Of a DNA stretch of 64,000 bases, positions 24,023 through 29,634 are shown piece after piece. How positions within the stretch are numbered: position 1 is the first letter of the stretch; every line of letters begins with the position of its first letter. The notes below the pieces were generated by a model, which was given only the letters and a program-made list of their open reading frames with translations, had not been told where the DNA came from and searched no databases. The DNA lies in the NCBI RefSeq assembly GCF_015244675.1, contig NZ_JABCQO010000004.1:62001-126000 (forward strand), written 5' to 3'. Source of the DNA: Gluconobacter cerevisiae. Its GTDB lineage: Bacteria; Pseudomonadota; Alphaproteobacteria; Acetobacterales; Acetobacteraceae. Position numbers and translations under genes: made by a program.

Positions 24023-24478
24023 TCAGGCCGAAAGATGCGCCTTCACCAGCGCACTGGCCTTCGCCGGGTCCAGATCCGCGCCGAAGCGCTCTTTCAGAGC
24101 CGCCATGACCTTACCCATATCCTTCATGCCCGCCGCTTCGGTCTTCTGAACTGCTTCGGCAATCCCGGCCTTCAGCGCGGACTCATCAAGTTCCGGCGGC
24201 AGGTAGGACTTGATCGTGGCGATCTCGCCCTCTTCCTTTTCCGCCAGTTCCGGACGGCCACCCTCACGATACATCGTGGCGGATTCCGTGCGGGACTTGA
24301 TCATGGAGCGCAGGGCGGAAATGATGTCCTTATCCGTCACTTCGCCCGTCTTGGCACGGGCAGCGACATCCAGATCCTTGATCTTGGCCGTAATCCCGCG
24401 GATCTGTGCCACCGTCTCGGACTGACCGGCCTTCATCGCCGTCTTGAGGTCATCCATGATCTGCTTGCGAAGCGACAT
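24023..24478 (-). CDS. GatB/YqeY domain protein
   Basis: This 151-residue cytosolic protein consists of the all-helical YqeY domain related to the tail of the GatB amidotransferase subunit. Typical text includes LKTAMKAGQSETVAQIRGI, EGEIATIKSYLPPELDE and KDMGKVMAALKERFG. The role is uncertain; a link to tRNA-dependent amidation has been suggested for the family. It is divergent from carA across a 247-base region holding the tandem dyads. The carA-yqeY-dnaG neighbourhood is common in alphaproteobacteria. Confidence 0.9.
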   Translation of the reverse strand: MSLRKQIMDDLKTAMKAGQSETVAQIRGITAKIKDLDVAARAKTGEVTDKDIISALRSMIKSRTESATMYREGGRPELAEKEEGEIATIKSYLPPELDESALKAGIAEAVQKTEAAGMKDMGKVMAALKERFGADLDPAKASALVKAHLSA

Positions 24479-24602
24479 CGCCGTTCTCCTTCATCGGACA
24501 GCCCGCATGAAGCCGTCCCTCATTCCGTGAATGGCGGCAAAATCGCACAAAAGCCGGTTTGCAACAATCCGGCAGGCCCTGTGGCTCCAAAACAAGCCAT
24601 TC

Positions 24603-24661
24603 GGAAAAAACTTCCCACCCTTTCCGATGACGCAAAACGGGCAGTGGGAAAAAACTTCCCA
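24603..24661. promoter_or_regulatory. Two tandem operator-like dyads upstream of carA
   Basis: The 15-base string GGAAAAAACTTCCCA occurs at 24603-24617 and again at 24647-24661, 44 bases apart (about four helical turns). With the preceding G the second reads GGGAA-AAAAC-TTCCC, an inverted repeat with 5-base arms; the first has GGAA/TTCC arms. Both copies are followed by TTTCCGAT after a few variable bases, so the repeat unit is about 28 bases. They lie 65-123 bases before the carA ATG. Repetition plus dyad symmetry suggests binding sites for a dimeric regulator; this is inference. Confidence 0.65.
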
Positions 24662-24725
24662 TTCCGTTTCCGATCCCGTATTCAGAGGCTCCAGAGCCTA
24701 TCCGACAGTCAGCAACGGGGCGACC

Positions 24726-26120
24726 ATGGACATCGACAGAATCATTGAAAAAGCCGGAGGCGCGGACGAAATCGCCGCTCTCGCCGGCGTTGGGCTGGAG
24801 GCCGTGCGCAAATGGCGCCAGTCCCGCATGGTCCCTACCAAACACTGGCCAGCCCTGCTGCGCGTGCCGGGAATCGCCCTTCAGGATCTGACAGCGGATC
24901 TCACCGCACCTCAAACCCCACAAGAACAAGCCCCGCAAGAACAAGAAAGAGAGACGGACGTGTCCAATCCCTGCCCTCCCGGCGCCAACGCCGCCCTTGT
25001 CCTTGCAGACGGGACAGTCCTGTGGGGCCGCGGCTTCGGCGCCCATACGGAAGGCGCCGTCGGTGAACTGTGCTTCTCCACCGGCATGACCGGCTATCAG
25101 GAAACCCTGACAGACCCGTCCTTCGCCGGACAGATCGTGACCTTCACCTTCCCGCATATCGGCAATGTCGGCACGAACGTCGATGACAACGAGGCCCCGA
25201 AAATGGCCGCCCTCGGTGCCGTTGTGAAGGAAGACATCACCGCCCCCGCAAGCTGGCGCTCCAACGAGCCCCTCGCGGCATGGCTGAAGCAGCACAATCG
25301 TGCGGGCATCAGCGGCGTCGATACCCGCGCCATCACCCGCACCCTGCGCGACAACGGCCCGCAGACCGCCATCCTCGCTTTTCCGGAAAATGGTCGCATC
25401 GACACGGACAGCCTGCTGAACCGCGCCCGCCAGTGGCCCGGCCTCGAAGGCATGGACCTCGCCAAAGAGGTGACGCAGCCCAAGCGCGTCTGGACACAGG
25501 GTGTATGGGAAACCACCCGCCCGGCCCGGACCGAAAACCGCCGCCGCGTTGTCGCCATGGATTACGGCGCCAAGGATAACATCCTGCGCTGCCTCGTGAC
25601 CGCCGGATGTGACGTCACCGTCCTGCCCGCCACGGCCACCGCCGAAGAAATTCTGGAACTCAAGCCCGAAGGCGTGTTCCTCTCTAACGGCCCCGGCGAT
25701 CCGGCCGCGACCGGCACCTATGCCGTCCCCGCGATCCGCACGGTGCTGGACGCGAACGTCCCCGTCTTCGGCATCTGCCTCGGTCACCAGCTTCTCGCGC
25801 AGGCTTTGGGCGGCAAGACCTACAAGCTGGAGCGCGGCCATCGCGGCGCAAACCAGCCGGTCAAGGACGTCGAGACCGGCCGCGTGGAAATCACCAGCCA
25901 GAACCACGGCTTCGCAGTGGACGAAAAGTCCCTTCCGGCTGATGTGAAGGTGACGCATGTGAGCCTGTTCGATGGCTCCAACGAAGGCATCGCCTCCACC
26001 ACGAAGGACGCCTTCTCCGTCCAGTACCATCCCGAGGCGAGCCCCGGCCCGTCCGACAGTTTCTATCTTTTCGAGCGTTTCGTCGCGGTCATGGACCGTC
26101 GCGCTAAAGCAGGAGCCTGA
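24726..26120 (+). CDS. carA: Carbamoyl-phosphate synthase small subunit with N-terminal HTH-like domain
   Basis: This 464-residue protein is the glutaminase subunit that feeds ammonia to CarB for pyrimidine and arginine synthesis. Residues 79-464 are a full-length CarA: ALVLADGTVLWGRGFG, CFSTGMTGYQETLTDPS, the nucleophile loop VFGICLGHQLLAQALGG and the catalytic QYHPEASPGPSD. Ahead of it are 78 extra residues. Residues 12-37 read as a helix-turn-helix (ADEIAALAGVGLEAVRKWRQ), followed by a Gln/Glu/Pro-rich linker. No stop separates the parts. I recall a family called 'carph-isopro' fused to CarA in related bacteria, but cannot verify it here. A GTG at 24960 (codon 79), preceded by AAAGAGAG, could start an unfused CarA. 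Confidence 0.93.
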   Translation: MDIDRIIEKAGGADEIAALAGVGLEAVRKWRQSRMVPTKHWPALLRVPGIALQDLTADLTAPQTPQEQAPQEQERETDVSNPCPPGANAALVLADGTVLWGRGFGAHTEGAVGELCFSTGMTGYQETLTDPSFAGQIVTFTFPHIGNVGTNVDDNEAPKMAALGAVVKEDITAPASWRSNEPLAAWLKQHNRAGISGVDTRAITRTLRDNGPQTAILAFPENGRIDTDSLLNRARQWPGLEGMDLAKEVTQPKRVWTQGVWETTRPARTENRRRVVAMDYGAKDNILRCLVTAGCDVTVLPATATAEEILELKPEGVFLSNGPGDPAATGTYAVPAIRTVLDANVPVFGICLGHQLLAQALGGKTYKLERGHRGANQPVKDVETGRVEITSQNHGFAVDEKSLPADVKVTHVSLFDGSNEGIASTTKDAFSVQYHPEASPGPSDSFYLFERFVAVMDRRAKAGA

Positions 26121-26123
26121 GCC

Positions 26124-29378
<3,255 letters not shown>

Positions 29379-29396: not shown

Positions 29397-29430
29397 AGCC
29401 CCGTCGGAGCGACTTTCGACGGGGCTATTC
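29397..29430. terminator. Terminator between carB and the XRE gene
   Basis: AGCCCCGTCG (29397-29406) pairs with CGACGGGGCT (29417-29426) around a ten-base loop; ATTCTTCTT follows on plus. The right arm overlaps the last bases of the convergent XRE gene, whose stop is at 29425. Confidence 0.8.
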
Positions 29431-29634
29431 TTCTTCGGAAAATCCGAGAATATCCCCCGGCTGGCACTCCAGCACACGACACAGCGTTTCAAGCGTTGAA
29501 AACCGGACGGCCTTGGCCTTCCCCGTTTTAAGAATGGACAGGTTGGCCAGTGTCAGCCCAACCCGTTCCGACAGTTCCGTCAGGGTCATGCCGCGCTCAC
29601 GCAATAATGCGTCCAGATTAATGGCAATGGGCAT
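29425..29634 (-). CDS. Small XRE-family HTH regulator
   Basis: This 69-residue Cro/CI-type DNA-binding protein is nearly all helix-turn-helix: LDALLRERGMTLTELSERVG, then LTLANLSILKTGKAKAVRF, then TLETLCRVLECQPGDIL. It resembles the YozG-like regulators that often sit beside a DUF2975 membrane gene; none is present here. The ATG at 29634 directly follows a stop codon of a 39-codon ORF. Two dyads lie 80-150 bases upstream of the start and may be its own operators. Confidence 0.88.
   Translation of the reverse strand: MPIAINLDALLRERGMTLTELSERVGLTLANLSILKTGKAKAVRFSTLETLCRVLECQPGDILGFSEEE

Follow-up and report, generated by a model that had tools for sequence, protein, structure and literature searches.

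An N-terminal Cro-type domain on CarA of Acetobacteraceae and conserved palindromes upstream of carA suggest autogenous repression of the carAB operon

The stretch of DNA analysed here, referred to as the window, comprised 64,000 nucleotides of a Gluconobacter cerevisiae contig (NZ_JABCQO010000004.1, positions 62,001 to 126,000). The carA gene is located on its forward strand, from an ATG at 24726 to a stop codon at 26118–26120, and translation gave a frame that was open throughout and coded for 464 residues. A longer alternative frame (ATG 24531, 529 amino acids) was present in the mechanical ORF list; the start kept among relatives is the one at 24726. The CarA profile TIGR01368 matched residues 89–457 (24990–26096, forward strand) with 445 bits against a cut-off of 307, which identified a complete carbamoyl phosphate synthase small subunit, and the motifs GICLGHQ and QYHPE were both found in this part of the protein. 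An earlier note on this DNA had described an extension in frame ahead of a complete CarA, and the frame open from 24726, together with the start of the profile match at residue 89, bears this out. The extension consists of a small domain (residues 3–56, 24732–24893, forward strand) and a linker rich in Gln, Glu and Pro (residues 57–88, 24894–24989, forward strand). The gene for the large subunit, carB, was recognized by eye in the ORF list at 26124–29378 on the forward strand, three bases after carA, and is presumed to share an operon with it. Upstream, an intergenic control region of 247 bp (24479–24725), delimited from the ORF list, separates carA from a divergent gene at 24023–24478. Two operator-like palindromes lie within this region, a distal one (CGGAA-AAAAC-TTCCC, 24602–24616) whose pattern is kept in relatives, and, 44 bp from it, a near-identical proximal one (GGGAA-AAAAC-TTCCC, 24646–24660). 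Just past carB, a 69-aa frame on the minus strand (29425–29634) resembles by eye a small XRE-type helix-turn-helix regulator.

The N-terminal domain was matched over residues 3–56 by the NCBIfam entry NF046037, 'carph-isopro', at an E value of 4e-17. The score was 62.1 bits for residues 1–78 and 56.7 bits for the whole CarA of the window, both above the curated cut-off of 38, and the two are the identical domain; the name, which the earlier note had put forward, was right. The library entry supplies the name only, without a stated function, operator or target. On the same protein the Pfam families YdaS_toxin (PF15943) and P22_Cro (PF14549) reached 26.3 and 13.3 bits, below their gathering cut-offs of 30 and 30.2, respectively. 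A YdaS-type toxin was rejected as the identity of the domain on the first of these scores, and from the second it follows that its likeness to Cro is one of fold and distant sequence only.

Residues 1–67 were modelled with AlphaFold2 from a 38-row alignment (mean pLDDT 82, pTM 0.61). Five helices were assigned in the model using DSSP (residues 3–10, 13–20, 24–33, 38–44 and 52–55), and the helix at 24–33 (24795–24824, forward strand) occupies the place of a recognition helix. The best Foldseek match of the model was Xfaso1 Cro (3bd1; TM 0.70–0.74, probability 1.00, best E 0.018), followed by XPH1, N15 Cro on DNA (6on0) and P22 Cro; no match of the domain model was obtained at E 0.001. A sequence profile of 38 relatives was compared with solved structures and found the same Cro proteins, with 5w8y, 3bd1 and 2hin/6on0 at E values of 0.001 to 0.005 and P22 Cro (1rzs) at 0.25. 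The domain was assigned to the Cro/lambda-repressor-like helix-turn-helix fold on the basis of the model and its Foldseek matches to Cro structures. Column counts over the predicted recognition helix showed E25, A26, K29 and W30 to be invariant across 150 loci, R28 to be kept in 149 and residue 31 in 148. By this model, CarA opens with a Cro-type DNA-binding domain of 56 residues. The earlier note had read a helix-turn-helix of this type from the letters and had held that a structural model of residues 1–60 without one would speak against it; the library score and the model both agree with that reading, and the model shows the helix-turn-helix. The phage Cro proteins (Xfaso1 3bd1, N15 2hin/6on0, P22 1rzs) are alike in fold and sequence but are small and free-standing, whereas here the domain is the head of an enzyme. 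To our knowledge, CarA of E. coli carries no such DNA-binding domain.

NF046037 was found over its cut-off in 189 of 200 Acetobacteraceae genomes drawn, and at any score in 190; in a second, overlapping draw from the family, an N-terminal query matched 373 of 397 genomes. In the class the cut-off was passed in 73 of 385 genomes, family members counted in, and in the phylum in 8 of 299. A single copy passing the cut-off was present in the window's own genome. Among named organisms, the closest matches to its domain were in Gluconobacter species, and 12 of the 80 loci returned were identical over 58 residues. A total of 150 family loci, the window's included, was analysed; a non-CarA hit (L172) was left out of all counts. 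The CarA motif NGPG[DNS]P was present in frame in 141 of these loci, and a variant of the motif was present in a full-length CarA in 4. The gene was cut by a contig end in 3 loci, and in the remaining 2 the frame joining domain and carA was broken, inside CarA in L050 and near the linker in L144, which may be assembly error. The protein sequence of the extension was conserved in all 150 loci, with the frame intact, as far as visible, in 148.

The palindrome GGAA-N5-TTCC was found exactly within 250 bp upstream of 145 of the 150 domain-bearing carA genes, compared with 22 of 3000 dinucleotide shuffles. With at most one mismatch it was found upstream of all 150 (434 of 3000 shuffles), and two exact copies were present at 83 loci. 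A wider set of 229 distinct loci, the named ones included, was obtained after 31 duplicates among 260 loci were dropped; 224 of these had an exact palindrome, all 229 had one with at most one mismatch, and 207 had two or more sites. The best two sites were 37–41 bp apart in 158 of the 207 and 44 bp apart in 22. The consensus of the exact sites was tGGGAA-N5-TTCCCa, with a centre that was mostly A or T. A strict tandem score was passed by 176 of the 229 carA genes; L042 was a relative for which the tandem test failed.

At the level of whole genomes, an exact tandem pair was present in 101 of the 200 from the family and the backwards pattern in 5 (counted by eye). Among the matches listed, which comprised 75 places in 69 genomes, 56 tandem pairs were at a domain-bearing carA and 7 were elsewhere, while 12 were not assigned by the script; 3 of these 12 (in G172, G176 and G133) were seen by eye to be at the domain. 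Four of the 7 off-carA places are explained by an array of GGAACGAGGTTCC-type repeats (G032:C1:2413-2536), and one was at a contig end. The exact GGGAA-N5-TTCCC occurred 7 times in the window's genome, and the 6 occurrences other than the carA site were inside long ORFs, by which a regulon beyond carA was ruled out for this exact pattern in that genome. Of the remaining sites some were inspected, among them L012 and L021, which were inside ORFs. Operator-like DNA that matches the CarA domain appears to be the new part of the finding.

In 124 of the 229 loci the proximal palindrome ended 14–15 nt before the ATG. A TTG was present at −35 distance in 116 of these 124, and the −10 element had A as its second base in 117; TTG plus TA at promoter spacing was found around the proximal palindrome in 84 of the 124, whereas across these regions the combination occurs at 0.22% of positions. 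The palindrome thus placed appears to fill the spacer of a promoter-like element, and the transcript start would be expected at or beside the ATG. Since a fixed promoter-like element is located so near the ATG in these 124 relatives, the domain should be translated and CarA should start at this codon. The proximal site was 61–67 nt from the ATG in the window and in 20 Gluconobacter loci (L210–L228 and L232), and no sigma-70 consensus promoter was found in the window's carA upstream region, so that the promoter overlap is a property seen in other genera and not in this genome.

CarA loci of the class from outside the family (28 in number) were used as controls; L311 was unparsed and was left out of the palindrome count. 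The palindrome was present in none of the 27 parsed controls, whose CarA is without the domain, even when one mismatch was allowed. A profile search at E 1 gave no domain match in the 28 control loci or in seven further loci lacking the domain (L054–L059 and L350). Within the family, 17 genomes that lacked the domain or carried it off CarA were queried for CarA. Seven matches were obtained, 4 of them fragments and 3 reaching the N-terminus, and because of this the joint absence within the family is a count of three genomes. In two members of genus g30 (G029 and G116), CarA lacks the domain and the palindrome is absent even with one mismatch allowed. In a genome of another genus (G590), CarA is without the domain, and no exact palindrome and two scattered one-mismatch sites were found in 520 bp; its sisters G030, G117 and G169 retain both the domain and the tandem pair. 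One genome of genus g30 has a stand-alone carph-isopro frame of 82 aa (L362, G116:C1:2074574-2074711). Extra small frames (74–160 aa) with weak carph-isopro or YdaS-like matches, most of them below the cut-off, were observed in family genomes (L364–L367, L369–L375).

The outer bases of the palindrome vary, and in some relatives C replaces G at ±7 (CGGAA...TTCCG). Half-sites belonging to a CarA with Q32 had G at this position in 673 of 772 cases, and those belonging to a CarA with S32 had C in 63 of 70; exceptions were L041 and L046 (Q32, few G) and L204 (S32, mostly G). Phylogenetic least squares were applied to 344 variable columns of the whole CarA in 225 rows, after removal of 4 sequences in the tree of 229 whose CarA bodies were short and of all columns with fewer than 4 departures from the majority. 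For the ±7 base, residues 32 and 23 ranked first and second at all five settings (t 5.5–8.8 and 4.3–5.4, respectively). For the ±8 base, residues 24 and 27 ranked first and second (t 3.6 and 3.1) at one setting. Residues 24, 27 and 32 are within the predicted recognition helix and residue 23 is directly ahead of it; in the window, the two residues that best predict the ±7 base are Gln32 (codon 24819–24821, forward strand) and Gly23 (24792–24794, forward strand). No recognition-helix residue was among the top five columns for the ±2 base. When discrete events were counted on a tree of CarA bodies, residue 32 changed about 6 times and operator class about 5 times, and independent pairs of residue 32 and operator class gave means of 2.4 in agreement, 0.0 in disagreement and 1.6 without a difference. 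The independent-pairs count points in the expected direction but, with so few discrete changes, cannot reach significance, and the least squares are the main evidence.

Since a Cro-type head on CarA is accompanied by matching palindromes at the carA promoter region, the enzyme very probably represses its own operon. On this comparative evidence we put the probability that CarA is an autogenous repressor of carAB, acting through the Cro-type head and the two palindromes, at about 0.84. That CarA might control its own operon, possibly as a sensor of carbamoyl phosphate or glutamine, had been suggested in the earlier note, and the idea of self-control is supported by the palindromes, their joint absence with the domain, their promoter position in many relatives and the covariation. 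The CarA domain would bind the two 15-bp palindromes (tGGGAA-N5-TTCCCa), likely with one dimer per site, and the presence of two sites suggests cooperation between dimers. CarA so bound would keep RNA polymerase off the carAB promoter. Our best guess for the signal is the amount and assembly of CarA, such that CarA outside the active CarAB would occupy the sites; alternatively, UMP and ornithine would set the oligomeric state of the complexes that occupy them. The oligomeric state of E. coli CarAB changes with these two compounds. As an outcome, the level of the CarA subunit would track the demand for arginine and pyrimidines.

A separate regulator of the family might bind the palindromes, with the CarA domain doing other work such as subunit contact. 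A structural role is conceivable for the domain, whose absence together with the palindrome is known in the family from three genomes. We nevertheless regard this explanation as unlikely: domain and palindrome are missing together, among the variable columns of CarA it is those of the recognition helix that are tied most closely to the outer operator bases, and most of the listed tandem pairs are at carA, which would be unusual for a pathway regulator. It is quite improbable that the domain binds the sites but activates carAB, or that it chiefly controls the divergent gene at 24023–24478. The location of the sites between two divergent genes would allow for this, but TTG and TA flank the proximal site, facing carA, in 84 of 229 loci, and this is the classical place for a repressor.

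We also considered that the palindromes form an RNA hairpin, or attenuator, in the carA leader, as inverted repeats can fold and the sites in the window are at least 66 nt from the ATG. The region 24595–24730, however, folded little better than its shuffles (z −1.0; an equally good fold in 33 of 200), and the attenuator was rejected for this reason; no terminator-like site was found in the window's carA upstream region, and in many relatives the site is upstream of the expected transcript start, all of which makes a hairpin very improbable. Hardly any credence is given to an extension that is untranslated or dispensable, with CarA starting near codon 79, in view of its conservation in 150 loci with a frame intact as far as visible in 148, and of the constant distance of 14–15 nt from the proximal palindrome to the ATG in 124 of 229 loci.

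The proposed autogenous repression by CarA was compared with known systems. The carAB operon is reportedly among those autoregulated by an sRNA from their own 3' UTR. The likeness is that a product of carAB limits its own operon; the RNA acts after transcription, whereas CarA is proposed here to act on DNA. Autoregulation by an sRNA from the 3' UTR of an operon is described in PMC7398697. The nearest precedent is PutA, a metabolic enzyme in which an N-terminal DNA-binding domain represses the enzyme's own genes (PMC5293562), and the same is proposed for CarA; PutA differs in having another DNA-binding fold and in being an enzyme of proline catabolism and not CarA. Of the features of a PutA-like autogenous trigger enzyme, a DNA-binding domain and a complete enzyme in one chain were found in CarA by sequence and model, and candidate operator sites at its own promoter were found by comparison only. 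In E. coli, two trigger enzymes, PepA and PyrH, control carAB transcription (PMC6245113). That system is similar in that control is exerted by enzymes with a second role, but these are other enzymes acting in trans, with ArgR, PurR, RutR and IHF (PMC6245113). In a literature search the name 'carph-isopro' was found in no paper, and no report of a DNA-binding CarA or of autoregulation of carAB by CarA was found; neither 'carA' nor 'carbamoyl' occurs in the main text of a G. oxydans RNA-seq paper (PMC5756330).

The carAB operon occupies the branch point of arginine and pyrimidine synthesis, and if CarA is its repressor, a bacterial family controls this branch point by a one-protein loop. The carph-isopro domain, so far a name without a stated function, can now be paired with a conserved candidate operator, which in many relatives lies in a promoter-like element, and with residues that may determine its specificity; operator and residues make the function of the domain cheaply testable.

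The same domain was found on other proteins. Outside the family it was N-terminal on mitofilin-like proteins (5 of 6 tested), and it was present on NAD(P)H-hydrate epimerase/dehydratase (NnrE/D, L084), crotonyl-CoA reductase (L380), SerA (L389), PyrB (L407), HisZ (L404 and L409) and ArgB (L410). In L409 and L410 the protein scan scored it at 35.0 and 34.8 bits, slightly short of the cut-off, and L088, L388, L394, L405, L406 and L411 were assigned by their resemblance to identified fusions. One genome of another class carries it on 2-isopropylmalate synthase (LeuA, L416), in keeping with the isopropylmalate enzyme that the earlier note had named as a partner. Tandem 5-N5-5 palindromes, which share the geometry of those at carA but have other half-sites, were found upstream of ArgB in both loci (half-site TTACT, spacing 34 bp, matched by 0 of 500 shuffles), of HisZ L409 (half-site TTCAT, 39 bp, 0 of 500 shuffles) and of PyrB (half-site TTGCG, 22 bp, 2 of 500 shuffles). 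The tandem test failed upstream of HisZ L404–L406 (family f121) and of the NnrE/D, SerA and crotonyl-CoA reductase fusions, and a single, weak 7-N5-7 palindrome was present upstream of LeuA (40 of 1000 shuffles). We give about even odds to the broader proposal that carph-isopro is a portable self-repression module that was repeatedly fused to biosynthetic enzymes, with fitting tandem palindromes arising each time. Such a module, fused N-terminally to CarA, PyrB, ArgB, HisZ, LeuA and SerA, often at early or committed steps, would act on tandem 15-bp palindromes in its own promoter, and each enzyme would report its state to its own gene without a separate regulator. The fusions form a natural series of putative enzyme-repressors, some with candidate operators, in which the way enzymes become regulators could be followed, and which may be of use for building self-limiting pathways. 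CGTACG or GTAC words were noticed by eye upstream of several of the mitofilin-like fusions (among L060–L087) and could be the operator of these proteins.
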